Below, one piece after another: positions 16,810 through 28,971 of a stretch of 34,866 nucleotides of DNA. Origin of the DNA: a virus; the IMG/VR virus record IMGVR_UViG_3300018083_000081, positions 1-34,866 of that record; one strand, 5' to 3'. Position numbers and translations under genes: made by a program. Below the pieces are notes generated by a model. The model was not told where the DNA came from, searched no databases, and saw only the letters and a list, made by a program, of their open reading frames with translations. Every line of letters starts with the position of its first letter. Positions within the stretch are counted from its first letter, which is position 1.

Positions 16810-18720
16810 ATGTTCCCCTTGATGGCGCTGGGCGCCGGCCTTGGCCAGTTCGCGCAGGACTTCCGGCAGCAGCAGGCGCAGCAGGAGCGCTCCCTGATGT
16901 TGCAGATGCAGCTTGCCGAGTACCAGCGCGCCCTCGACAAGGACAAGCGGGAGTCGGAGGCGTCCGGTCTCGCCCTCAATTTCGGCCTGCCGGGGGCCGG
17001 CGGCGCCCCTGGCGGCTCTTCGTTTGGGTTGCCGCCGTCGCCGTCCAGCTTCGGCGGCTCTCCCGCTACTGCCGGGGGTGGCGGCGGCATGACCCTTGCC
17101 GAGGTCAAGGCAGCGGCGCGTCGCGCCGGCTTTGACGAGGATGGCGCCAACACCATGGCTGCCATCTCCGTGCCGGAGAGCAGCCTCAACCCCAATGCCT
17201 ACAACCCGAATGACCCGTCCGGCGGCTCGTTTGGCCTGACGCAGATCAACGGCGTGCATCCCGGCGCGCGTGAGGCGTTGGGCAATCCCGACAGGGCGAT
17301 GGAGTTGGCCTTTCGGGTGAGTAAGGGCGGCACGAATTTCAGCCCGTGGACGGCCTACAGAAGCGGCGCCTATAAGCCGTATCTGGCCGAAGCGTCGCGG
17401 ATTCTGCCGGCCGGACCCTCCGCCGCGCCCGCCTCGTTCGATCGCGGCCGGGCCGTCATGGACCCAAGCATGCCGAATACGGCCGAGGGCCGGGCCGCCG
17501 CGGCGCCGATGTCGGAAGCGTCAGCGGGCTATGCCGAGGCGATCGGGCGGGGCTTTAGGGGCACGATCCAGGACTTTGCCGGACGGGGCGGCGGCCCGCA
17601 AACCGCGGGGCCGGCGGTCGGGCAGCAAATGGCGCAGGCGCAAGTGCAGGGCGCGCCGGTGCCGCCGCCCTCGCTGCGGGACATCGCCCTGCTGCTGCGC
17701 AGTAAAAACCCCACCACGGACAGCCGCGTGATCTGGGATGCGGCAGATAGATTCCATAAGCGCGAGCAGGAAAACTACAAGCTCAATTTCGAGCGCTGGA
17801 AGGCGTCAACCGGCTTTGCCGGAGACGCCGCAACCCGCGCCGAGACGAGCCGCCACCATCAGGTATCGGAGGGTTTCGAAGGGCAGAAGATCAGCCTGGA
17901 GGAGCAGGGCCTCAAAGAGAAGATCGCGGCCGGCACGGCGACCCGCGCCGACCAACTCCGCAACCGCGAGTTGGAGGAGCGCCGGATCGTCGAGACCGAG
18001 CGGGCGAACCGGGAGAAAGAGAGGGGAGACGCCGCGACCCGCACCGAGGCGGGCCGCCACCATCAGGTCACAGAGGGCTTCGAGGGGCAGAAGATCGGCT
18101 TGGAGGAGCAGGGCCTCAAGGAGAAGATCGCGGCCGGGACCGCGACCCGCGCCGACGCGCTGCGCAATCGCGAACTGGAGGAGCGCCGGATCGCCGAGAC
18201 CGAGCGGGCGAACCGGGCGAGAGAGAAGGGCGTCGCGGCCAACACCCAGGCCCGCATCGGCAAGGAAACGTCGAAGGTCGATTTGGCGACGACCGAACTC
18301 GAAACGCTGGCGAACGAAGCCGATCAGTTGTCGCAGATGGTCGAGGCGAACCCCAAGCTGGTCGGCGCCAAGGGCATCGTCGGACGCGCGGTCGGCAGCG
18401 TCGGCGAGCAGCTGGGTATTCTGGATGAAGACCCGGCGCTGGCACAATTCAAGAGCAAGGTGCAACTGCTGCAATCCCGGCTTGCCAAGCCCCTGCTCGG
18501 CGCGCGCTACTTCAGCAAGCCGTCGCAGGACCGCCTGAACCAGCTTCTCCCCGGCCTCCAGCGCCTCGACAACCCGACAGCCGTGGTGCAGTCGCTGAAG
18601 AATGTTTCCGAGGTATTGAAGACCAATGCAGCCGCCATGAAGGCGGCCTCCGGCGCGGTTTCCGAGGACATCTCGAAACTGACTGACGACGAGATCAAAA
18701 AGCAACTCGGGCTGGAATAG
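16810..18720 (+). CDS. Internal virion protein with lytic transglycosylase domain (636 aa)
   Basis: An ejection protein that likely opens the peptidoglycan during DNA entry. Residues about 94-195 form a soluble lytic transglycosylase (lysozyme-like) domain: MTLAEVKAAARRAGFDEDG, catalytic Glu123 in SVPESSLNPNA, SFGLTQIN at 140-147, and FSPWTAYRSGAYK at 177-189. A Gly/Pro linker separates this from an N-terminal Gln-rich helix. Residues 340-475 are two near-identical 68-residue charged repeats, probably coiled coil. The C-terminus (SRLAKPLLGARYFSKPSQDR and LKTNAAAMKAASGAVS) is helical and typical of phage internal proteins. The next gene starts directly after the stop. Confidence 0.8.
   Translation: MFPLMALGAGLGQFAQDFRQQQAQQERSLMLQMQLAEYQRALDKDKRESEASGLALNFGLPGAGGAPGGSSFGLPPSPSSFGGSPATAGGGGGMTLAEVKAAARRAGFDEDGANTMAAISVPESSLNPNAYNPNDPSGGSFGLTQINGVHPGAREALGNPDRAMELAFRVSKGGTNFSPWTAYRSGAYKPYLAEASRILPAGPSAAPASFDRGRAVMDPSMPNTAEGRAAAAPMSEASAGYAEAIGRGFRGTIQDFAGRGGGPQTAGPAVGQQMAQAQVQGAPVPPPSLRDIALLLRSKNPTTDSRVIWDAADRFHKREQENYKLNFERWKASTGFAGDAATRAETSRHHQVSEGFEGQKISLEEQGLKEKIAAGTATRADQLRNRELEERRIVETERANREKERGDAATRTEAGRHHQVTEGFEGQKIGLEEQGLKEKIAAGTATRADALRNRELEERRIAETERANRAREKGVAANTQARIGKETSKVDLATTELETLANEADQLSQMVEANPKLVGAKGIVGRAVGSVGEQLGILDEDPALAQFKSKVQLLQSRLAKPLLGARYFSKPSQDRLNQLLPGLQRLDNPTAVVQSLKNVSEVLKTNAAAMKAASGAVSEDISKLTDDEIKKQLGLE
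17827..18234 (+). repeat. Two tandem 204-bp repeats in the ejection protein gene
   Basis: Two copies of a 204-bp unit (17827-18030 and 18031-18234) encode 68-residue repeats that each start AATR and contain HHQV, EGFEGQKI, LEEQGLKEKIAAGTATRAD and ELEERRI. The copies differ at only a few residues (for example ETSR against EAGR). A third start (AANTQARIG) follows, so an older partial copy may exist. The high similarity suggests recent duplication or gene conversion. Confidence 0.85.
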
Positions 18721-21636
18721 ATGTCCGACCTCCCCGCAAGCCCCGACACTCAGGGGCGGCTAGAGCTGCTTGGCGAGGCCTATAAGCGCGGGCTGCTGCC
18801 GCCGGATCGGGCGCGGCTATACGAGGAGGGACAAAAACGAGGCCTGTTCAAAGCCCCCGCGGCCGCGGTGCCCCCGAGCGGCGAGTTGGTTCCCGGCGGC
18901 GCGCTGGCCAATCCCAACGCGCCAGCGCCGGACACCGAGATCGGCATCGGCCTGGCGACCCCGGGCCGAGCGCCCAGCGTGCCCCGGCAGCAGCGTGGCA
19001 TAATCGACCTGGCGGGCGAGCGGGCGAGCGGTATCAGGGGCGAGATGCGGCTCCTCCAGGGCTATGACCCGGAGGTAGATTACGACACCGGCACCGGCTG
19101 GAACGATGCGGTGGCGATGCACCGCTCCGACAACCCGGCCGAGAAGCGGTCCTATCTTGCCCGCAAGTATGGCCCTGAGAATGTCTTTACCGATCGCGGC
19201 GGCCGGTTCGTGGTGCGCGGGCAGGACGGCAAGATGCTGTCGCCGGAAGGCACCGGGTTCATGAACAACCTGATGCAGGGGAGCGCCGGGATCTATGCCG
19301 ATGCGCCGATGATCGCGGGGGCAACCGGCGGCGCCATGGTCGGCGCCCCCGCTGGGCCGCTGGGTGCTATTGCCGGGGCGACGGCCGGCTCCGCTCTCGG
19401 CAAGACCGCGATCGAGGGCAGCAAGGCGCTGAGCGGCGATTTTCAGAAGACGATCCCGGAGACGGCGCTGTCGATCGGCATGGGTGGGCTGATGGGCGGC
19501 GCCGGGGAGGGGGCGGGCCGGCTCATCACCGGCATCCCCGGCGCGCTTGGCGGAGCCTTTCGCAAGTATGTGACCGGGACGACGCCGGAAGCGATGGACC
19601 TGGCCGCCTCGGTTCAGCGGGCCGGTGGCGTTGCTCCATTGCGCTCGGTGGCGCCGGGCCTCTCCTCGCCCATCCAGAAACAGGACGTGGCAGCCCGCCT
19701 CGGCGCCGACTTCCTGGAAAACCCAAACCGGGCGGCTGTCCAAGGTCGGCTGGGCGAGATTGTTGGGGCGGAATTTCCGGCGGCCGAGCGGCCGGGGGCC
19801 ATGCGCGAGATCATGGACCCAACGGCGCGGGTGTCCTCGCGCGAGGCGGGGACCGCGGTGCAGCGCGAGGTGCAGCTGCATGGCGCGCAGCTGGACGCCG
19901 AGGTCGATAACCTGGCGCGCGACGCCGACCGGATGCTGACGCAGCAGCTGCGGGGCCTGGGCGCCATCCCGCGCCGGGCCCCGGCGGGCGACCTCGGCAG
20001 CGATGTGGCGGCCGGGATCGCGGAGGCGCGCAACGACTTTAGCCGCTCGATGCAGAGCATCTACTCGCGCGTCGATCAGGCGACGGGCGGTGCGGAGATC
20101 GTCCCCACGGGGGCGATCAAGCGGGAGGCGCGGCGCATCCTCGATGCCCTGCCGAAAGATGCACAGGGCAACCCGATATTCGGCGATCAGCGAGTTCTGA
20201 GGTCCCTCGGGCAGCTACGCGACATCGGGCCGAAGATGACCCTCAGCGACGCGCAGAGCATTCGCGCCACCCTTGGGGAGATGGGCCAGTTCACCGACCT
20301 GACCCCAGGCGTCGCCAAAAAGCAGTTCGGCGATCTGCGGCAGAGCGTCAACACGGCGATCGGGATGGCGGCCCGCGACCCGGCGGCGGCCCCGGCAGTA
20401 AACATGCTGCGCCGCGCCGACCAACTCTACGGCGAGGGCATCCGTAAATTCGAGGATACGACGGTCAACCAGATCGTCAATCAGGCCCGCACCGGCATGA
20501 TGCCGGACCCAGGGGCCATCGCCGACAAGGTGCTGCAACCGAAATTTACGGCCCGCGCCCGCGAGATCAGGGGCATGGTCGGGCCGGACGTGTGGCGTCG
20601 GGTGGCCTCCGCCGACTGGGAGAATGTCGTAGCCGCCGCCCGAGACCCGCAGACCGGCGAGATGTCGGCCCGCAAGCTGGCGACGCTGGTGCAGCAGAAG
20701 GACCGCGACGGCCTCCTGGAGCTGACCTATGGGCCGCGGTTGGCCGGGGAGATGCGGCTCTACAGCCGTCGCCTCGACGCGCGCGGCGGGAAAGTCCCGG
20801 CGGGGCAACTGACCCCGGACAATTTCGCCCAAACCATGCAGCGGCTGGAGACGGCAAACCTGACCCGCGACAGCTTCCTGTCGAAGAATTACCTCTCGGA
20901 ACTGTCGAAGCCCGGAGCGTCGGCCGACGATGCGATCGGCTATGTCCTGCGGCCCGGCCAGGAGACGCGCCTGATCGAGGCGCAGCGCTTCTTTGGCGAC
21001 CAGTCGCCGCAGATGGCTGCGATCCGGCAGCAGGCCCTGAAAGAGCTGCTGAACTCGTCGATCGCCCGCACCGAGACGGGCGCGGGAACGATGGTGGTTG
21101 GCGACGGCATAGATCAGGCTTTGCGGCGGTGGACCCCGCGGCAGCAGGAAATCATGTTCCCCGGCGGCCTGGCTGATGACATGCGGCGGCTGGCACAGGA
21201 AATTCGCTTCATGTTCCCACGTCGCGGCGACCAGCTGGGGGGCGCCCTGATTGCCGGCGCGGTCAAGAACCTCCCGTTGCCGGCCCGCATCCCGGCCCTG
21301 GCCTACTATCAGGGCATGGGCTGGATTTTTTCCCAGCCCCGCGTCGTGAAGGCGATCGTCGCCGGGCTGGAGCCGGGGCCGGCAAAGGCGGCGACCCGCG
21401 AGACGATCCGCATGATCTTCCGCGAGGCGGCGATCGGAGAGCTTCCGCACCCGGACGAGACGCCGGAGCCAGGGGTCATGTCTCCGAGTCAGGCGGCCGT
21501 CACGATGATGGGCCGCAACTATGGTGTCGGCGCCGGGCCGAGGGCGCCCATCCCGCGCGGACTACGGGGCGCTCCGCAGGCGCCTCCCGCTAATGCCGAG
21601 CCTCGCGACCTCAGGCCGAGCATCGGCGGCCCGTAG
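18721..21636 (+). CDS. Large internal virion / ejection protein (971 aa)
   Basis: The third and largest of the ejection set, in the place of T7 gp16. The N-terminus holds a short helical motif LLGEAYKRGLLPPDRARLYEEG, followed by a Pro/Ala linker. Around residues 133-175 lies YLARKYGPENVFTDRGGRFVV, a segment seen in many phage internal core proteins. Residues about 195-260 are Gly/Ala-rich (MIAGATGGAMVGAPAGPLG, IAGATAGSALGKTAIEG) and could insert into a membrane. The rest is long and helical. No catalytic domain is seen. The stop overlaps the start of the ATP-grasp gene (TAGTG), so that enzyme is made with the late proteins. Confidence 0.7.
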   Translation: MSDLPASPDTQGRLELLGEAYKRGLLPPDRARLYEEGQKRGLFKAPAAAVPPSGELVPGGALANPNAPAPDTEIGIGLATPGRAPSVPRQQRGIIDLAGERASGIRGEMRLLQGYDPEVDYDTGTGWNDAVAMHRSDNPAEKRSYLARKYGPENVFTDRGGRFVVRGQDGKMLSPEGTGFMNNLMQGSAGIYADAPMIAGATGGAMVGAPAGPLGAIAGATAGSALGKTAIEGSKALSGDFQKTIPETALSIGMGGLMGGAGEGAGRLITGIPGALGGAFRKYVTGTTPEAMDLAASVQRAGGVAPLRSVAPGLSSPIQKQDVAARLGADFLENPNRAAVQGRLGEIVGAEFPAAERPGAMREIMDPTARVSSREAGTAVQREVQLHGAQLDAEVDNLARDADRMLTQQLRGLGAIPRRAPAGDLGSDVAAGIAEARNDFSRSMQSIYSRVDQATGGAEIVPTGAIKREARRILDALPKDAQGNPIFGDQRVLRSLGQLRDIGPKMTLSDAQSIRATLGEMGQFTDLTPGVAKKQFGDLRQSVNTAIGMAARDPAAAPAVNMLRRADQLYGEGIRKFEDTTVNQIVNQARTGMMPDPGAIADKVLQPKFTARAREIRGMVGPDVWRRVASADWENVVAAARDPQTGEMSARKLATLVQQKDRDGLLELTYGPRLAGEMRLYSRRLDARGGKVPAGQLTPDNFAQTMQRLETANLTRDSFLSKNYLSELSKPGASADDAIGYVLRPGQETRLIEAQRFFGDQSPQMAAIRQQALKELLNSSIARTETGAGTMVVGDGIDQALRRWTPRQQEIMFPGGLADDMRRLAQEIRFMFPRRGDQLGGALIAGAVKNLPLPARIPALAYYQGMGWIFSQPRVVKAIVAGLEPGPAKAATRETIRMIFREAAIGELPHPDETPEPGVMSPSQAAVTMMGRNYGVGAGPRAPIPRGLRGAPQAPPANAEPRDLRPSIGGP

Positions 21637-23909
21637 TGGCTCGCGTTCTGATTGTCGAGCCCACCGCGGACGGTCTGCTCGATCTCGCGATCCGCGCCCA
21701 GCAGCACGGTCATTCCGTCCACTACTGGCTCAAATCATACGACCAGCACAAGCAGCCGGTCGGCCGGGGCCTCGTCGAGCGGGTCGCAGACTGGCGCTCA
21801 CTCGCCCGCCGAGTCGATCTGGTGATCCTCGGGAGCCTGGGTTACTGCGGCCGGGAGTTCGACCAATTGCGGGCCGAGGGGGTGCCGGTCATCGGGGCGC
21901 CGGGCCTCGTCGGCGAATGGGAGCTGGACCGCCTCGTCGGCATGCAGCAGTTCAAGCGTGCCGGTATCCCGGTCCCACCGTACCGCCAATGCACCAATTA
22001 CGACGAAGCGATCAGCCTCGTCTCGCAGCGCGACGACGGGGTAGCGATCAAGCCATGCGGGGACGTGACCGACAAGAGCCTCAGCTTCGTCGCCAAGACC
22101 CCGCGCGAGGCGGTCTGGCGGTTGCAGCGGTGGAAGCGGGAGGGCAGGCGGTTTCCCCATGGGTTCATCCTCCAGGAGCTGGTCGAGGGCGTAGAGTTCG
22201 CGGTCGGCGGCTGGATCGGCCCCGGCGGGTTCGCCGAGGGGTGGGAAGAAAATTTCGAGGAGAAACGCCTCTTTGCCGGTGGCGTCGGTCCCAATTGCTA
22301 CTCGGCCGATACGGAGGTCCTTACAGCCGTGGGCTGGAAAGCGTGGCCGGATGTCAAAAAAGCCGACTGTCTCGCTACGCTCAATGACGGGCTCGTCTGT
22401 TACGTGATGCCAGACCGGCTGGTCGAGAGCGACTTCGATGGCGAGATGATCGGCTGGCGGTCTAACCGCGTCGATCTGCTCGTCACCCCGGATCACGCGA
22501 TGTACGTCGCCGACCGCGATACGGTCCGTCGCGGTGAGCCCGAGTTCTACCGGGCCGCAGCCGATGGCCTCGCCGAGAACCGGATAGAGAAGAAATTCGC
22601 CGTGCTGCGGGTCGGGCGTTGGGCCGCCCCCGGTAATCCCTCGATCACCCCGGCCCGCGCCCGCCTTCTGGGTATGTTTCTGGCGGACGGTCATTGCGGG
22701 CAGCGGTCAATCGTGTTCGGCAATTGCCCGGCCCACAAAGAGGCTCTGATTCGCGATGCGGCACTGGCGTGCGGCTACGTTGCGCACCGCTATGGCGCGG
22801 ATGTCTACATCAACAGCCGCGACCTGGCTAATGCCTGGCGGCACTTCCCCAAAGCCGTCGAGAAGCGGGCGCCGCAAGAAATCATGGGCGCGGCGCCCGA
22901 CGTAATTGCTGCGTTCCTCGATGGGCTTGCCCTCGACGCGGCGACAATGGGCAATCGGGTCTACACCACGGCCAGCCGGGGCATGGCCGATGATATCCAG
23001 ATCATGCTGATGCGCATCGGCCTCGCCGGGCATGTCCACGAGCGCGACCGCCGCGGCGAGCCCGAGCGGGAGCTGGGCGGCTACATCATCCGGGGCGGCC
23101 TGTCTTGGGATGTCGGGGTATCCTCTCAGGCTCTCGCGTGGCTCCGGCCGAGGTATTGCTATCGCGCGCCCTACCGCGGGAAGGTCTATTGCGCGACCGT
23201 CAACTCGGAGTCGCATGCCCTGTTTGTTCGCAGGAACGGGAAGGCGTGCTGGTCCGGCAATTGCGGCGAGGCCGGCACCGTGATGCGGCTGGTAGCGCGC
23301 AGCAAGCTGGCTGACCGCGTCCTGAAGCCCCTCGAAGATCGCCTTGTGAGCCTCGGCTACGTTGGCAACATCGACGTGAATTGTATTGTTGACGAGGACG
23401 GCAGCCCGTGGCCCCTGGAGTTCACAGCTCGCTTTGGGTATCCCGCAATCAACATAGAGCTTGCACTTCATGGCGACCCTATCGAGTTTCTGGCCGGGCT
23501 TGCGGCCGGGAAGCCGCCCAAGACGCGGCGGCTGGACGAGGTGGCGGTCGGCGTCGTCTGCGCCCTGCCGCCATACCCGTACCGGGAGAAGCCGGACGAG
23601 ACGGTCGGGGTGCCGATCTGGGGTGTGACGCCCGGCATCGAGGACAACATCCACCTCTGCATGGCCCAGGTCGGCGAGTTCGAGAAGCGCCCCACGCTGA
23701 TGACCGCCGGCAGCTACGTCCTAGTATCGACCGGGACCGGCGAGAGTGTCGTTGCGGCCCGCAACGAGGCGTACCGCGTGCTCGATCGCCTGACCATCCC
23801 GGCCTCGCCCTTCTGGCGGAATGACATAGGGAGCCGTCTTTCGAGAGACGTCCCGCGACTGCAGGAGCATGGCTATGCCGCGGGGTTAAGGTACAGCGCA
23901 GCCGCATGA
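21636..23909 (+). CDS. PurD-like ATP-grasp ligase interrupted by an intein
   Basis: The precursor has 757 residues; removal of the intein leaves 435, close to the 420-430 of glycinamide ribonucleotide synthetase (PurD). Support for the family: MARVLIVEPTADGLLDLAIR at the N-terminal pre-ATP-grasp fold, the KRAGIPVPPY stretch, VAIKP, ILQELVEGVEFAVGGW, the GPN motif (PurD has GPNTGG; here GPN-C-GE across the splice site), and LEFTARFGYPAINIELAL, the place of the RFGDPE segment. The PurD phosphate loop GGGGREHA is absent, so the substrate may differ from phosphoribosylamine and glycine. ATP-grasp enzymes join a carboxylate to an amine using ATP. The GTG start overlaps the previous stop. Fold and family sure; substrate unknown. 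Confidence 0.8.
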   Translation: MARVLIVEPTADGLLDLAIRAQQHGHSVHYWLKSYDQHKQPVGRGLVERVADWRSLARRVDLVILGSLGYCGREFDQLRAEGVPVIGAPGLVGEWELDRLVGMQQFKRAGIPVPPYRQCTNYDEAISLVSQRDDGVAIKPCGDVTDKSLSFVAKTPREAVWRLQRWKREGRRFPHGFILQELVEGVEFAVGGWIGPGGFAEGWEENFEEKRLFAGGVGPNCYSADTEVLTAVGWKAWPDVKKADCLATLNDGLVCYVMPDRLVESDFDGEMIGWRSNRVDLLVTPDHAMYVADRDTVRRGEPEFYRAAADGLAENRIEKKFAVLRVGRWAAPGNPSITPARARLLGMFLADGHCGQRSIVFGNCPAHKEALIRDAALACGYVAHRYGADVYINSRDLANAWRHFPKAVEKRAPQEIMGAAPDVIAAFLDGLALDAATMGNRVYTTASRGMADDIQIMLMRIGLAGHVHERDRRGEPERELGGYIIRGGLSWDVGVSSQALAWLRPRYCYRAPYRGKVYCATVNSESHALFVRRNGKACWSGNCGEAGTVMRLVARSKLADRVLKPLEDRLVSLGYVGNIDVNCIVDEDGSPWPLEFTARFGYPAINIELALHGDPIEFLAGLAAGKPPKTRRLDEVAVGVVCALPPYPYREKPDETVGVPIWGVTPGIEDNIHLCMAQVGEFEKRPTLMTAGSYVLVSTGTGESVVAARNEAYRVLDRLTIPASPFWRNDIGSRLSRDVPRLQEHGYAAGLRYSAAA
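22296..23261 (+). mobile_element. Intein with LAGLIDADG-type homing endonuclease (322 residues)
   Basis: An in-frame protein intron. Block A is CYSADTEVLTAVGW with Cys1; block B is DLLVTPDHAMYVAD with the TPDH motif; the endonuclease blocks C and E are LLGMFLADG and FLDGLALDA, two LAGLIDADG helices; block F is VYCATVNSESHALFVRRNG; block G is CWSGN, followed by Cys+1 of the C-extein. The terminal Asn is present but the usual penultimate His is Gly, a variant known in several phage inteins. The LADG acid is kept, and the second motif ends in LALDA, so endonuclease activity is possible. Splicing joins GPN to CGEAG. Confidence 0.92.
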
Positions 23910-23927: not shown

Positions 23928-24572
23928 TCAAAATACCCGATGCCGCTCGCCTTGGGCGCGGGCGGCGGCGAATGCGGCGTGCGCCACCTCCGCTTGCCTA
24001 CGGCAAATTGTGTGGGGAACGTTGAGTGGATTCTCGTTTTGATTTCGGCAGGCGCAGCTGCCATGTACACGAACGCATTCGTCAGTAGTAATGCGTTCGG
24101 CAAAGTCGCGTGCAGCTTCCTGATCCTCCCCCGCGCCCGTGGTCCAGCGGAGACGGGTGACATCTTCTCTTGCCCATTCATAGGCGTATTCGTTAGCAAG
24201 TTCTCTCAGCCGCGCAACCTCCGCCTTGGACGCGTCGAGTTCGTTGCAGAGAACACGAAGCCGCCCTTCTATATGACGAACCTCCGCCTGGGATGCGGCG
24301 AGGGCGGATTGTGTTTCGCGTAAGCAATCTTCGATGTGACAGCGATGGTTGCCATATTCGTCGTTCCAGGGTGCGTGGCATTGATTTGCCGCCAGTGCGA
24401 AATTCCGTTTCTCGCTCGCGGCGAGGGCGGATTGTAGAAAGTCACCCCGCGCCTCGCCCGGCTGCGGCGCGTCGGGGACGCAGCGCGGGCATGGGGCGTC
24501 CATGCTCGGCAGCACCATCGCGCAGCTCTGGCAGATCGGCTCCGACTCCTCGATCTCGGCATCGTCAGGCAT
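23928..24572 (-). CDS. Cys-rich coiled-coil protein, last gene of recombination operon (214 aa)
   Basis: Not recognised. The ATG at 24572 follows GAGGGGAGAAAG, a very strong ribosome site. An upstream open extension to 24749 only translates the pentamer array and is rejected. The N-terminus has a zinc-ribbon-like pair (CQSCAMVLPSMDAPCPRC). Two segments QSALAASEKR and QSALAASQAEV come from an 18-bp direct repeat (24295-24312 and 24418-24435). Residues 85-150 are a coiled coil (EGRLRVLCNELDASKAEVAR). The tail has further cysteines (CVRVHGSCACRNQ). It converges on the ATP-grasp gene with an 18-bp gap. It could be a regulator or nucleic-acid-binding protein; nothing more specific is supported. 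Confidence 0.65.
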   Translation of the reverse strand: MPDDAEIEESEPICQSCAMVLPSMDAPCPRCVPDAPQPGEARGDFLQSALAASEKRNFALAANQCHAPWNDEYGNHRCHIEDCLRETQSALAASQAEVRHIEGRLRVLCNELDASKAEVARLRELANEYAYEWAREDVTRLRWTTGAGEDQEAARDFAERITTDECVRVHGSCACRNQNENPLNVPHTICRRQAEVAHAAFAAARAQGERHRVF

Positions 24573-24595
24573 CTTTCTCCCCTCTGTTGATCGAG

Positions 24596-24789
24596 CCACA
24601 CCGCGCCATAGCCCGCCCCGCCATTCCGAACCACGCCATACCCCGCCAAGCCGCGCCATACCGACGCCCGCCTGCCCGCACCTAGCCATTCCACGCCTCG
24701 CCGTGGCCAACCAGACCGCGCCGCACCCAACCGCGCCGGGCCTGTCCACTAGCCACAGCTTCCCAATTCCCCGCCGAGCCGCACCCGAC
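24596..24789 (-). repeat. Phased pentanucleotide array (NNNGG on the minus strand)
   Basis: Read in steps of five on the plus strand from 24596 to 24750, 28 of 31 pentamers begin with CC; in the other three (24611, 24666, 24706) the CC is shifted by one base. On the transcribed minus strand this is a run of NNNGG units. TATGG occurs three times, AATGG twice and CGCGG four times. A second, phase-shifted run (CC at 24769, 24774, 24779, 24784, 24789) reaches the stop region of the upstream RAMP-like gene. The array fills the intergenic gap before the gene starting at 24572. GG tracts spaced by three bases could also stack as two-layer G-quadruplexes in the mRNA. Confidence 0.8.
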
Positions 24790-25461
24790 CTACGCCTGGC
24801 ACACCCGATAAGAAACGACCGAAAATCGTCCGTATGTCGGCCGAAAATCGCCCAAACCGCCGATCCGGCCAGCCGTCGAGATGACCTCGTTCAGAACCTG
24901 CGGGCTGATGTACTCGGGCAGCGTGACGAGGATCAGGAATGTCGCGCGCCAGCCGACCTTCATGCCCGGCCGCGTTCTGTTGATGCCGCTGCGCTGAACC
25001 ACGACCCTGCGCTTGTCCTCGAAGTCCCATACGGTAGCGGCCGCGCCATACCCTGCCTCGCCCCTGCTTACCGCGGAATATAATGGGGCGAGAGGCGTCA
25101 AAGACCCCACCCCGGCCTTGAACAGGTCCATCGCCGACTTTCGTGGCGAGCGCGGGTCTTGTCGGAACTTGGCTGCGCCGACGATCGCGCCGCGCAGATA
25201 TTCACCAGGAATACAAATCTCCCCATCCTCATTGCGATAAACATAACTTTCGAGGTTGTCGCTCTTTTTTGCGGCGCTTCCTTTGGCCGCCTTGGCCTTC
25301 TCGTCTACCGCCTCCGGGTTCCAGCGATGGAACAGGATGTCGGCGGAGCCCTCGATCACGACCTCGACGGTGAAGGGCTCGCTCATCGCGATGATGTCGT
25401 TCCCGCCATCATTCGGATCGGCCAGATGTATTACTTCTGCCATTACTTTTGCTTTAGCCAT
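24790..25461 (-). CDS. Phage protein with RAMP/Cas7-like motifs (223 aa)
   Basis: Function unknown. Two sequence features recall RAMP (Cas7/Csm3-type) RNA-binding proteins: IPGEYLRGAIVGAAK at residues 84-98, like the RAMP IPGSSLKGA-R loop, and GGLGDFRPTYGRF at 201-213, like the C-terminal Gly-rich loop. Between them lies VGWRATFLILVTLPEYISPQ, a beta-alpha unit as expected in a ferredoxin-like fold. The start overlaps the preceding stop (TAATG). It is followed by the NNNGG pentamer array. It belongs to the recombination operon with ERF and YqaJ, so DNA or RNA binding during recombination is the safest guess. The RAMP link is by motif only. Confidence 0.7.
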   Translation of the reverse strand: MAKAKVMAEVIHLADPNDGGNDIIAMSEPFTVEVVIEGSADILFHRWNPEAVDEKAKAAKGSAAKKSDNLESYVYRNEDGEICIPGEYLRGAIVGAAKFRQDPRSPRKSAMDLFKAGVGSLTPLAPLYSAVSRGEAGYGAAATVWDFEDKRRVVVQRSGINRTRPGMKVGWRATFLILVTLPEYISPQVLNEVISTAGRIGGLGDFRPTYGRFSVVSYRVCQA

Positions 25462-25973
25462 TAATCCTTCTCCTCGGTCTTTTTGGCGAAGTCAACGACC
25501 AGCTGGATGCTACTGCTGTCGCCCATGTTGGCCCGGGAGTTCCAGGCTCTCTGATTTATCAGGGTAAGCCATCCAATTTGGGGGCTGACGGCCTCTATGC
25601 CGGAATGGATCACCACCCCGGGATTGGTCCGCAACGAGACGATCATTCGCTGAAACCGCACGCTGTATGGCGTGGCATTGCGCTCCCATGGGAGGCAGGT
25701 ATCCGGCGGGATGATCTCCAGGCCGATCTTGCCGAAATCGATCCCACCGGTCGCGTCCCCAAGCCGCTTGATGCGCCCAAGGTAGGACCTGAGCTCGACC
25801 CACTTGCTGGTGTCGAAAAGCTGCCGGTACGCCGTATCGTCGTCCGGGTCATCGGCCCCGGCGCGCGGTCCCCGGATCGGCAGCAGGCCCTCCTTGAACA
25901 AGCCCATGCGTTTCGGCAGCGAGGCCGCCAGCTCGTGCGGGTCCAGGAATGCCAGGGCGAGGATGTTCGGCAC
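25461..25973 (-). CDS. Unknown protein of recombination operon (170 aa)
   Basis: Not recognised. A GTG start follows the upstream stop by one base (TAG-C-GTG) and the end overlaps the RAMP-like gene start (TAATG), so the two products are made together. The N-terminus is LALAFLDPHELAASLPKRMG, then LLPIRGPRAGADDPDDDTAYR, an acidic stretch. The second half has strands YSVRFQRMIVSLRTNPGVVIH and IQLVVDFAKKTEEKD. No metal motif or Walker motif is visible. Tight coupling suggests it works with, or forms a complex with, the RAMP-like protein. Confidence 0.65.
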   Translation of the reverse strand: MPNILALAFLDPHELAASLPKRMGLFKEGLLPIRGPRAGADDPDDDTAYRQLFDTSKWVELRSYLGRIKRLGDATGGIDFGKIGLEIIPPDTCLPWERNATPYSVRFQRMIVSLRTNPGVVIHSGIEAVSPQIGWLTLINQRAWNSRANMGDSSSIQLVVDFAKKTEEKD

Positions 25974-25974
25974 G

Positions 25975-26391
25975 CTACGCCGCTCCCCCGGTCGTCGGCT
26001 GGCACAGCGGGCAGCGGCCGTTCAGTTGCGGCGCGTCGGGGTGTGTCGGGCATCGCAGCTGCTGCGCATCGGCCTGCGCATCGGCCCGCAGCTTGGCAGC
26101 CCAGGACGGAGCCGCTTGCTTGGTGGACGGATTGGAACTGACCAGCGAGACGACATCGCCCGTGGGCTTGCCGCTCTCGATCGAGCGCAGCGCCATGCGC
26201 AGCCACTCCGGCGTCACCTCCAGCGTGGCGATGCCGGTTGCGCTGCCCTCGTGCTGCCGCCCGGCGTCGATCCCGATCAAGGCGGCGGCCGACTCGATGT
26301 TCGGCGCGATGGCTACGGATACCGCGATAGGGCCGGTATCGAAGGTCAGCGCCACGCAGTACGCCTTCAACTTTGTCTGATCGTCGCTCAT
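25975..26391 (-). CDS. Unknown protein with C-terminal zinc-ribbon-like end (138 aa)
   Basis: The ATG at 26391 overlaps the preceding small gene (ATGA) and has GGGAGG just upstream; the longer open frame to 26532 is not needed. The first half is a small alpha-beta domain (KLKAYCVALTFDTGPIAVSV, ESAAALIGIDAG, EVTPEWLRMALRSIESG). The end has LRCPTHPDAPQLNGRCPLCQ, whose C-x-x-H ... C-x-x-C spacing suggests zinc binding. Role in the recombination operon unknown. Confidence 0.65.
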   Translation of the reverse strand: MSDDQTKLKAYCVALTFDTGPIAVSVAIAPNIESAAALIGIDAGRQHEGSATGIATLEVTPEWLRMALRSIESGKPTGDVVSLVSSNPSTKQAAPSWAAKLRADAQADAQQLRCPTHPDAPQLNGRCPLCQPTTGGAA

Positions 26392-26558
26392 GGCTCCCTC
26401 CCTAAGAACCAGCCCTCGACGGCATCTTGAATTGCCTCTGAAAGAGAGCGCAGGTCGGCGGCCGCCTCCGCTTCGGATGGCGCCCACGCCTTGTAAGACT
26501 CGCCCAAAAAATGCGCGGCAAGATCCCCACATGCCGGATCGACTCCTTTAGCGGCCAT
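26388..26558 (-). CDS. Small acidic helical protein (56 aa)
   Basis: A short frame starting at the ATG at 26558, inside the last 11 bases of the ERF gene, and ending in an ATGA overlap with the next gene. The product reads MAAKGVDPACGDLAAHFLGE, then YKAWAPSEAEAAADLRSLSE and AIQDAVEGWFLGREP: two short helices, acidic and compact. It fills the only gap between ERF and its downstream neighbour, and its coupling on both sides supports translation. Function unknown. Confidence 0.6.
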   Translation of the reverse strand: MAAKGVDPACGDLAAHFLGESYKAWAPSEAEAAADLRSLSEAIQDAVEGWFLGREP

Positions 26559-27366
26559 CGAATGCCTCCAGACCGTCGCTGCCCGCCAGCTTGCGTCGGC
26601 GGCCGGCGGCGCGCACCCGCAGCATGTCCATGCTTTCCCGGTGCGCCACCGGGTCGTCGATCGAGGCTTCCGCCCCGATCCGGTCGAGGGAGAGGAAGGC
26701 GGGCCACTCCTCCAGCCGGGTCAGCATCTCGGTGTCCCCCTCGGCGTCGATCGCGGCGGCGATCTCCCGCCACCGCTTGGTGGCCTCAGCGGCGGCGCCG
26801 GATGGCGCTGGGGCGGCCTGTTGGCGGGCGGGGGCACTGCGGGCGCCATTCGCGCTCTGCGGCGCCGGGCGACCGCGTGAGGGGGCGTCCTCGCCCTGCG
26901 CCACTTCGTCGGCGTCCTTCTCTCCGGTCGGGATCTTGAAGATCTGCCGTAAAAATTGTTTCTCGACGTAACTCTGCGCCGCCCCGTAGCTCTGCGGGCC
27001 GGTGATCGGCATCGCCAGGCTGCGCCGCATCGACTGCGAGACGCTGCCGTCCTCGTGCATGAAAGCCAGGGTGTAGTTGGCGAACAGCCACGGGGTCCGG
27101 CGGAGGTTGCCTTGCCGGTCGGTCGTTTCCGAGACGCGCACGTCGGTCTCGGTCTCGTCGATCAGCAGCGCCAGCCCGGCGGCAGCCATCAGCGGGCCGA
27201 TGCGTTCGTAGAACTTGTCGACGCTGACATAGCGGTAGCCGCCGTGCTCGTTCTTCTCGTCGGAGCCCAGCTGCCGGACCTGCATCTTGACGGCGATGAT
27301 CGCCTTGGCGATGGGTGCCGGCATGGGCGCGCGAACTTCGCCGGTCGTCGGATCGTGGTCGCTCAT
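26548..27366 (-). CDS. erf: ERF-family single-strand annealing protein (272 aa)
   Basis: A phage recombinase that anneals complementary single strands after end resection. The ERF core is clear: PIAKAIIAVKMQVRQLGSDE, then GYRYVSVDKFYERIGPLMAA and AGLALLIDE, followed by LFANYTLAFMHEDGS and the hallmark ITGPQSYGAAQSYVEKQFLR, QIFKIPTGEKDADE at residues 121-154. Residues 160-215 form a low-complexity Pro/Ala linker, and the last 55 residues are helical, as in other ERF proteins, whose C-termini bind partners. AGGAAAA lies before the ATG, which overlaps the KTSC stop (ATGA). The paired exonuclease lies upstream in the same operon. Confidence 0.88.
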   Translation of the reverse strand: MSDHDPTTGEVRAPMPAPIAKAIIAVKMQVRQLGSDEKNEHGGYRYVSVDKFYERIGPLMAAAGLALLIDETETDVRVSETTDRQGNLRRTPWLFANYTLAFMHEDGSVSQSMRRSLAMPITGPQSYGAAQSYVEKQFLRQIFKIPTGEKDADEVAQGEDAPSRGRPAPQSANGARSAPARQQAAPAPSGAAAEATKRWREIAAAIDAEGDTEMLTRLEEWPAFLSLDRIGAEASIDDPVAHRESMDMLRVRAAGRRRKLAGSDGLEAFDGR

Positions 27367-27578
27367 TTGATTTTCCTATGAGGCTGGCTCTTCAACCACC
27401 TGTTGACGTACTGGCCCGGCGAGGTGGCTTCCAAAAGGTCCTGGTATGCGGCGTTGCCGGCGCTGGGGTAGGCGTAGGTCGAGCCGTCCTTGAACTCGAC
27501 CAGCAACTCCTGGGCGTCGTCGTCCCAGCCGACTGCGGCCACATTGGAGCTACGAACTGGTGTCATTTCAGCCATCAT
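27363..27578 (-). CDS. KTSC-domain protein (71 aa)
   Basis: A KTSC domain, named for the C-terminal part of lysyl-tRNA synthetases but found alone in many phages: SSNVAAVGWDDDAQELLVEF, KDGSTYAYPSAGN, then YQDLLEATSPGQYVNRWLKS. It covers nearly the whole protein. The ATG at 27578 overlaps the upstream stop (ATGA) and has GGAGAGG before it; a longer open frame to 27662 runs through the neighbouring gene and is rejected. The domain probably binds RNA or protein; its role in phage recombination operons is not known. Confidence 0.8.
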   Translation of the reverse strand: MMAEMTPVRSSNVAAVGWDDDAQELLVEFKDGSTYAYPSAGNAAYQDLLEATSPGQYVNRWLKSQPHRKIK

Positions 27579-27769
27579 TTCCTCTCCTCTGTCATGTCTT
27601 GTTGATACTGGAGCAGGCGCGCCCGGAGGGCCGCGAAAAGCTTGACGCAAAATTGGCAGCACCGCTCGGAGGGATCCATTGCCCGCCCCATACTCTCGCC
27701 GGCCTCCTGCGTCGCGATCTCCAACGCGAGGATCAGGGTCGAGACTTCTTCATCGTCGAGGTTCAGCAT
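27575..27769 (-). CDS. Small unknown protein (64 aa)
   Basis: Not recognised. The start overlaps the end of the exonuclease gene by seven bases and the end overlaps the KTSC gene. The peptide is helical and acidic at the front (MLNLDDEEVSTLILALEIAT), with a Cys-x-x-Cys pair in the middle (ERCCQFCVKLFAALRARLLQ). A small zinc-binding or regulatory peptide is possible. Support is the reading frame and coupling. Confidence 0.6.
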   Translation of the reverse strand: MLNLDDEEVSTLILALEIATQEAGESMGRAMDPSERCCQFCVKLFAALRARLLQYQQDMTEERK

Positions 27770-28647
27770 TCCGGCTTCTCCAAAGCTATCGTTACGCCCC
27801 TTCCATCCCGCTTGTACTTGACGAGGCCAAGCCGGCAGAGACCGACATCCTCGGGCACCAGTTCGGTCAGCTCCTTGCGGGTGATCGCGTGCAGCCTGGC
27901 GGCGCCTTCCGTCTCGGCGAAGACGCGGGCGAGGCGGGTGAACTCCCCCGCCCAGTTCGGCCGCTCGCCGGCCGGGGTCAGGTCAAGGTTGATCTCGCGG
28001 CGCTTCGGCTGGGGCTTCGGCGGCGCGAGGGGGGCGATCTCGTCCTGCGGCTCGGTGTCATTCTGGACGTGCTGCCAGAACGCGCGTTCGCGAGACAGCA
28101 GCCGGGCACGGAACATCGGGTCTATTTCCTGCTCGACCCATTCCCACTTGCCGTTGCCGATGAAGACGGAGAGGCCCCACCAGTCGAACCCGAGGATCGT
28201 CGCGTTGTGGACGCCCTGCGGGGTGTGGCGCAGCAGGAATGCCTCGTCGGCGCGCCCGGTCCACTTTGCGTCCCAGTAGCAGGGGTCGCCGCGCGAGGTC
28301 GTCGAGATGCCGTCGAGGTGCGCTCCCATAAAAGGGTAGGCATCGCTGACCGCCCACTCGCCGCGCCGCTCGACGGCCCGGCCGGTCTGCCGCTCGTACC
28401 AGAACGCGTTCAGATCCTCCGTGGCGTGTCCCAGGAGCCGCGTCAGTTCCAGCCGCTCGCGGCTGAAGTGCCTCAGGACGTGATAGTCCAGGGTCGGCGA
28501 CAGCTTGTCGTAGAGGTCCGGTTCCGGCATGCGGCCGGTCTTGACCTTCCACAGGTCGAGCCACTTGCCGGCCAGTACGTCGGCCGCGTCCGAACCGCAG
28601 ATGTATTTTTTGCGGTACGCCAGCTGGTCGTCGGTGAGTCCGCTCAT
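27763..28647 (-). CDS. YqaJ-family phage exonuclease (294 aa)
   Basis: The resection nuclease that pairs with ERF. It has the PD-(D/E)XK layout of YqaJ/lambda-exonuclease-like enzymes: CGSDAADVLAGK at residues 17-28, GHATEDLNAFWYERQTGR at 73-90 with a candidate metal Glu77, PFMGAHLDGIS at 105-115 with Asp112, and YWDAKWTG at 124-131, where Asp126 and Lys128 stand for the E-x-K pair. The later LRHTPQGVHNATILGFDWWG matches the usual Q-x-x-x-Y helix region. The C-terminus is a longer extension with a Pro-rich linker. The ATG at 28647 overlaps the upstream stop (ATGA); the extension to 28971 is rejected as it reads through the promoter. Confidence 0.85.
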   Translation of the reverse strand: MSGLTDDQLAYRKKYICGSDAADVLAGKWLDLWKVKTGRMPEPDLYDKLSPTLDYHVLRHFSRERLELTRLLGHATEDLNAFWYERQTGRAVERRGEWAVSDAYPFMGAHLDGISTTSRGDPCYWDAKWTGRADEAFLLRHTPQGVHNATILGFDWWGLSVFIGNGKWEWVEQEIDPMFRARLLSRERAFWQHVQNDTEPQDEIAPLAPPKPQPKRREINLDLTPAGERPNWAGEFTRLARVFAETEGAARLHAITRKELTELVPEDVGLCRLGLVKYKRDGRGVTIALEKPEC

Positions 28648-28823
28648 GGCAGCTCCTCGCCTTTGCTGTATGCCTCGATGTCGGCCTGTGCCGATGCCAG
28701 CAATTCGCGCATCCGCGCCACGAAGGCCGGGAGGTCGTCGCCGGGGAATTTGCAGTAGATCAACCCCGTGATGATCGTGGCATCCGCGACCCCGAGGGCA
28801 CGCGCGTGGCGTAGGTCCGTCAT
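28644..28823 (-). CDS. First gene of recombination operon, small helical protein (59 aa)
   Basis: Not recognised. The ATG at 28823 gives MTDLRHARALGVADATIITG, LIYCKFPGDDLPAFVARMRE and LLASAQADIEAYSKGEELP: three short helices. It is the first gene of the minus-strand operon, directly after the divergent promoter region, and is coupled to the exonuclease gene by ATGA. Early small proteins of this type are often host-takeover or anti-nuclease factors, but that is inference from place only. Confidence 0.6.
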   Translation of the reverse strand: MTDLRHARALGVADATIITGLIYCKFPGDDLPAFVARMRELLASAQADIEAYSKGEELP

Positions 28824-28941
28824 GCTCCGCACTCCGCTTCGATCTGATCGAGAACAAAAATAAACAGGGAGCGGTGGGTGGCGGCCCGGTTGTCCTTTGT
28901 CGGTTGTCGTGGCCGCCATTCCTTTCCCGAAGAGTGCCGCC

Positions 28942-28971
28942 CTTGTATTCCTCGCCCGGCGAGGTTGTCAA
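28942..28971 (-). promoter_or_regulatory. Promoter with operator in spacer, for the recombination operon
   Basis: On the minus strand a perfect -35 box TTGACA (28971-28966) is followed by ATACAA after 17 bases or TACAAG after 18 (28948-28942). The spacer holds a perfect inverted repeat CCTCGCC-N-GGCGAGG (28950-28964). This is where a repressor would block the polymerase, and the divergent HTH gene starts 51 bases away. The -35 and the inverted repeat are direct observations; regulation by the HTH protein is inference. Confidence 0.6.

Follow-up and report, generated by a model that had tools for sequence, protein, structure and literature searches.

A VIPR-type locus in a viral recombination operon: vipr and an adjoining array of GG-Y-NN pentamers

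Analysis of a 34,866-nucleotide viral record (IMG/VR IMGVR_UViG_3300018083_000081; the whole stretch analysed is called the window below) revealed a locus that is very probably a VIPR system, made up of a Vipr gene and, after its stop codon, a guide-RNA array of pentamers (Table 1). VIPR (Viral Interference Programmable Repeat), described in 2026, is a phage-borne relative of CRISPR that consists of a single RAMP protein, Vipr, and a vrRNA (PMC13142463). The vrRNAs carry 9–16 YNNGG repeats in which GGY is constant, and their NN pairs read double-stranded DNA, passing over one base between one pair and the next, which silences competing phages; targets are known mainly for two clades (PMC13142463). 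Vipr itself is a small RAMP of about 20 kD with an RRM-like core and a glycine loop, and further traits of the system are hypervariable NN, an array that flanks vipr, a conserved structured 3′ tail, a vap accessory gene, and discrete vrRNAs that co-purify with Vipr, with binding and repression of DNA; the systems are divided into types I–VII (PMC13142463).

The protein, the grammar of the repeats, their placement and the phage setting of the window all agree with VIPR, and the locus is a new member of this already described system (PMC13142463). By homology and from the preprint, the array would be transcribed into one or more vrRNA guides that Vipr would coat, one subunit per repeat, holding GGY and exposing NN. 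The exposed pairs would then recognise double-stranded DNA as NNxNNxNN and bring about silencing of the target, in most cases a rival phage or a mobile element.

Table 1. Features of the locus and its surroundings (window coordinates unless a related contig is named)
Feature	Position	Strand	Basis or remark
Main vrRNA-type array, 31 in-phase GG-Y-NN pentamers (28 with GG)	24593..24747	-	Phase counts; GGY/NN pattern as in VIPR vrRNAs (PMC13142463)
Short run, five units out of phase with the main array (GGTCG GGTGC GGCTC GGCGG GGAAT), from the vipr stop codon	24766..24790	-	GG at 24790, 24785, 24780, 24775, 24770
vipr, 223 aa, single RAMP, PHROG 4652	24790..25461	-	Family profile, PDB profile match, AlphaFold2, Foldseek
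Candidate site for the first vrRNA of L129 (1-nt skip), within the codons of the vipr glycine loop	24827..24856	+	Eight units match 16/16 (24827-24850), ten match 18/20
Five array-like units (GGCGA GGCAG GGTAT GGCGC GGCCG) in a lineage-specific in-frame vipr insertion	25038..25062	-	Comparison of vipr genes
Putative vrRNA-type guide, ten units, reading the Vipr glycine-loop motif	L129:2985-3100, L134:405-520		
Gene that follows the array, 214 aa, without a family	23928..24572	-	ATG at 24572 preceded by AGGGGAGAAAG
Gene upstream of vipr that runs up to the vipr start; without a family, candidate accessory gene	25461..25973	-	
Second gene upstream of vipr, no family	25975..26532	-	
ERF single-strand annealing protein (context)	26548..27366	-	
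KTSC-domain gene, flanked by ERF and YqaJ within the recombination operon	27363..27662	-	
YqaJ/RecE-like exonuclease (context)	27763..28971	-	

The pentamer array in the window and in other viruses

On the minus strand from 24747 to 24597, 28 of the 31 pentamers taken in strict 5-nt phase open with GG, and in each of the three exceptions (GCCAC at 24707, GCGTC at 24667 and GCTAT at 24612) a GG lies one base earlier; a recount reproduced these figures of the first-pass annotation exactly. A second run that had been noted in another phase was also recovered, as five GG units at 24790–24770 that bridge the main array and the stop codon of vipr upstream. The three free positions per unit described at that stage have to be reduced to two, since the first of them is a pyrimidine in 24/28 units (14 C, 10 T, 3 A, 1 G); free variation is confined to the last two bases, and the unit grammar is GG-Y-NN. 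The 5-bp phase signal far exceeds that of shuffled sequence: dinucleotide shuffles of the array region (n = 2000) averaged a phase count of 11.4 and peaked at 18, and those of the entire minus strand (n = 100) peaked at 12, against the 28 observed. Outside the array, the highest 5-nt phase counts in the window are 11 (plus strand) and about 14 (minus strand). Because 31 units exceed the need of one vrRNA, the array probably encodes several.

The RNA of the array folds no better than shuffles (z = -0.41), an Rfam search gave no match, and neither a conserved RNA structure nor an Rfam family was found in the array or in 14 related loci. A structured 3′ tail after the repeat tract was likewise not recognised by folding, Rfam or comparison with relatives, whereas one relative (L007) has clear repeated tails. 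A tandem-repeat search of the window returned no CRISPR-type repeat array at the pentamer locus and no cas genes matched among the neighbours scanned, which bears out the earlier statement that the array is not a CRISPR.

An exact scan of IMG/VR with a pattern of twelve GGNNN units matched at least 120 stretches, and real heterogeneous GGNNN arrays are present in at least 98 viral contigs. These arrays are mostly intergenic and typically extend from just past a stop codon to before the next start; in 81 of about 109 arrays among the matches listed, both flanking genes are co-directional and GG lies on the sense strand. Across 3990 units from other viruses, the third position is C in 67.5% and T in 24.9%, and the entropy of NN is 3.91 of 4 bits. 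The form of the arrays varies, from repeated blocks with tails (L007) to staggered blocks of 9–16 units (L044), and occasional broken GG units occur in other arrays of the set as well. In bacterial genomes, the matches listed were mostly poly-G contig ends and simple repeats, with two real arrays (L222 and L234) passing the filter, one of them adjoining a vipr gene. BLAST of one array against isolate phages gave no match, probably owing to the low-complexity filter, and a literature search for phage repeats described as pentamer, GGCNN or GGNNN found nothing; the link to VIPR came through the PDB name Vipr. As a separate observation, GGCNN arrays rarely hold stop codons (for example L026, L046 and L071) and give rise to spurious ORFs, as well as to false extensions of N-termini with much ARRG/ARHG, which mislead gene calling and clustering.

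Vipr and its linkage to the array

Clustering of the proteins encoded next to the arrays yielded one dominant family, with 71 members in 59 of the 98 contigs listed, all 71 on the array strand and at a median distance of 17 nt from the array. A second cluster was rejected as mostly translated array sequence. An HMM search for the dominant family found 73 members in 63 contigs, including the gene directly upstream of the array in the window (E=1.7e-53). The family is diverse, with about 20% mean column identity, and has an invariant core, R-x-RP...W...AG...GxGDxRP...GRF, whose glycine loop reads GLGDFRPTYGRF in the window. Pfam has no model for it; 51/51 aligned members match phrog_4652, a PHROG of function not known. 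Against the PDB, the family profile matches 36pp, 'SUSP1 Vipr protein', with E=3.7e-38, and the window protein as a single sequence matches the same entry with E 0.0014. All 50 Foldseek matches listed for the AlphaFold2 model of the window protein (pLDDT 91.6) are RAMP subunits of CRISPR systems; Csm3/Csm5, type VII and Cmr chains make up most of them. Profile and model together identify the gene as Vipr, a homologue of SUSP1 Vipr with a predicted RAMP fold. A further vipr homologue, with arrays just upstream, was seen in phage DSL-LC04 (L441:5001-5618; OR003939.1), where its GenBank label is helix-turn-helix transcriptional regulator.

The array, its GGY-NN grammar and its linkage to vipr are found across many viruses. 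Relatives with the same gene were checked for the array, and it lies downstream of the vipr-family gene in L126–L129, L133 and L135. Comparison of the window with five relatives gave unit identities of 99% and 79% at GG and 55–56% at NN; the third position is identical in 30%, though mostly a pyrimidine. The arrays of the relatives are mosaic, some segments being shared and others replaced. The vipr genes of the window and L126 are 78% identical in DNA; NN thus diverges faster than vipr while GG keeps its phase over 155 bp, which indicates that GG is still under constraint.

The vipr genes of the window lineage also contain array-like DNA. An in-frame insertion, shared with L126–L129, L131 and L135, consists at the DNA level of 11 pentamers, 9 with GG, in these relatives and of 5 in the window, and encodes a Gly/Ala-rich loop between two conserved blocks. 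No internal array was found in the other vipr genes of the set, so that the feature is confined to the window lineage; in-gene arrays as a general property of vipr were rejected, the other cases being N-terminal mis-extensions into upstream arrays. The insertion could be functional: the vipr mRNA would carry a guide or a Vipr-binding segment and would thereby serve as a vrRNA too or regulate itself, with a flexible protein loop encoded in those very bases. We consider this quite improbable.

The locus shares with the known VIPR systems (SUSP1 and Pseudomonas fulva types; PDB 36pp) the single phage RAMP, the intergenic sense-strand GGY-NN arrays adjoining vipr and the freely variable NN, as well as a relative's guide that appears to match VIPR genes by the 1-nt-skip rule with the skips at wobble positions. 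It differs in that its 31 in-phase units lack clear unit boundaries or a recognisable tail, and in that vipr lies in an ERF/YqaJ operon, has no identified vap gene and carries the array-like in-frame insertion. With the RAMPs of Class 1 CRISPR systems (Csm3, Cas7, Cmr4 and type VII Cas7) it has the predicted fold and the glycine-rich loop in common and, by analogy, the RNA-guided principle and one subunit per repeat step. The register is 5 nt rather than 6 nt, however, only one protein is involved, and there are neither identical repeats with spacers nor other detected cas genes. CRISPR arrays likewise adjoin the RAMP gene that they serve with guides, but the long identical repeats are missing here and the information is spread over the NN pairs between fixed GGY.

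Two further observations concern the rest of the window. A large protein at 21636-23909(+) has a thymidylate-synthase PHROG match with weak LAGLIDADG and GARS_C matches, and possibly contains an embedded homing endonuclease or intein. A 204-bp tandem duplication (87% matches) lies at 17821-18230(+), within a gene for 636 aa (16810-18720).

Matches between guides and vipr genes

The target rule was tested by letting NN pairs read DNA as NNxNNxNN, with one base skipped. In the local set, 53 matches were obtained at a skip of one, against 7–8 with shuffled guides and 1–6 at other skips. A general excess at this skip was rejected, as 8 against 7–9 pairs remain without the guide of L129/L134, and a larger skip-match run was set aside for bias, some of its target loci having been picked with window patterns.

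The guide in question comprises the first ten units after vipr in L129, which follow the gene directly and have the NN pairs CG CC TA GT GG CG AA TC GC AG. Read with one base skipped, this putative first vrRNA is antisense to the codons for LADFRPTYGR in the glycine loop of Vipr, and every skipped base falls on a wobble position. When IMG/VR was scanned with eight of the units, 111 distinct sites emerged in the loci examined, of which 103 fall within vipr genes and share this frame; as the motif is conserved, these 103 sites represent one homologous family read by one guide and not 103 independent confirmations. Among the sites in vipr genes, 24 match 20/20 when all ten units are counted, and arrays are present as well in 82 of the 103 contigs. 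The vipr gene of the window has such a candidate site (Table 1). The evidence is that a string of ten units spells the Vipr loop motif at all.

The vipr gene of L129 itself matches its first vrRNA at 16/20, a score that no other gene in the comparison undercuts and that stems from the AGR codons of the two loop arginines. This could reflect self-avoidance. As a general escape, AGR arginine codons are not enriched at the glycine loop (23/94 against 175/881 elsewhere), and self-avoidance in L129 therefore remains a suggestion only.

A second match links a 14-unit guide (L121:7798-7883) to L025:3910-3951 at 25/28; the frame at this site reads DLLTLCSECHDGIT, is HNH-like and lies just upstream of vipr in L025. 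Apparent support for the pairing rule in these data comes essentially from this match and the L129/L134 guide. The window's own guides had no target above chance in five viral scans, and mutual targeting between the window and the co-occurring phage L044 was not above chance either. L044 (5221-5728) is a second VIPR phage, with a staggered array, from metagenome 3300021082, which it shares with L125, whose sequence equals the vipr region of the window.

Alternative readings and significance

The first-pass annotation had offered the array as a target of the RAMP-like protein encoded next to it. The association with that protein, Vipr, holds; by homology, the array would provide its guide RNA rather than its target. 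The locus could be a VIPR locus in decay, in which some units are without GG, boundaries and tail are gone and working guides are no longer made. The three broken GG units, the 14% of non-pyrimidine third bases (4/28 units, against 7.6% over the 3990 units of other viruses), the missing tail and the lack of targets for the window guides are consistent with decay, but broken GG units occur in other arrays too, vipr is intact and well folded in the AlphaFold2 model, and GG holds strict phase over 155 bp while NN diverges faster than vipr. Decay of the array is therefore unlikely in our view.

In a further reading, the ERF annealase or some other recombination protein of the operon would bind the array as DNA or RNA and load there, with contacts to GG once per half helical turn; a loading site for the annealing protein had been suggested in the first-pass annotation. 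The array does share an operon with ERF and YqaJ, and exonucleases (L007, L115) or RecT (L032) adjoin vipr in some relatives. Others have a terminase (L126) or different genes (L133) as vipr neighbours; since the neighbours differ, a tie between array and annealase is not supported, the arrays going with vipr instead. A loading site would also leave the 20/20 match of a relative's NN to vipr genes unexplained, and we regard it as very improbable. Even less credit is due to the suggestion of an RNA G-quadruplex element or decoy in an mRNA leader, for which about 30 GG tracts with 3-base loops are available and the composition is permissive: such an element needs neither a pyrimidine at the third position nor a strict 5-nt register over 31 units, it would account for neither the free NN, the vipr linkage nor an NN string that spells a vipr motif, and the array RNA shows no folding beyond that of shuffles. 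A chance or compositional artefact of GC-rich intergenic DNA can be dismissed for practical purposes, as the window is indeed 66% G+C but the phase count lies beyond every shuffle and the array is conserved in relatives.

As a VIPR system, the locus adds a lineage sited in an ERF/YqaJ operon, and the array-like insertion in its vipr gene raises the question of whether one RNA can be both coding and guide sequence. The match of the first vrRNA of a sibling phage, L129, to vipr genes points to a possible arms race within this lineage. By reading codon positions 1–2 of a conserved RNA-binding loop, this guide would match vipr in more than 100 viruses despite synonymous third bases. Such a guide may in effect read a protein motif from the DNA that encodes it, and is open to direct bench test.
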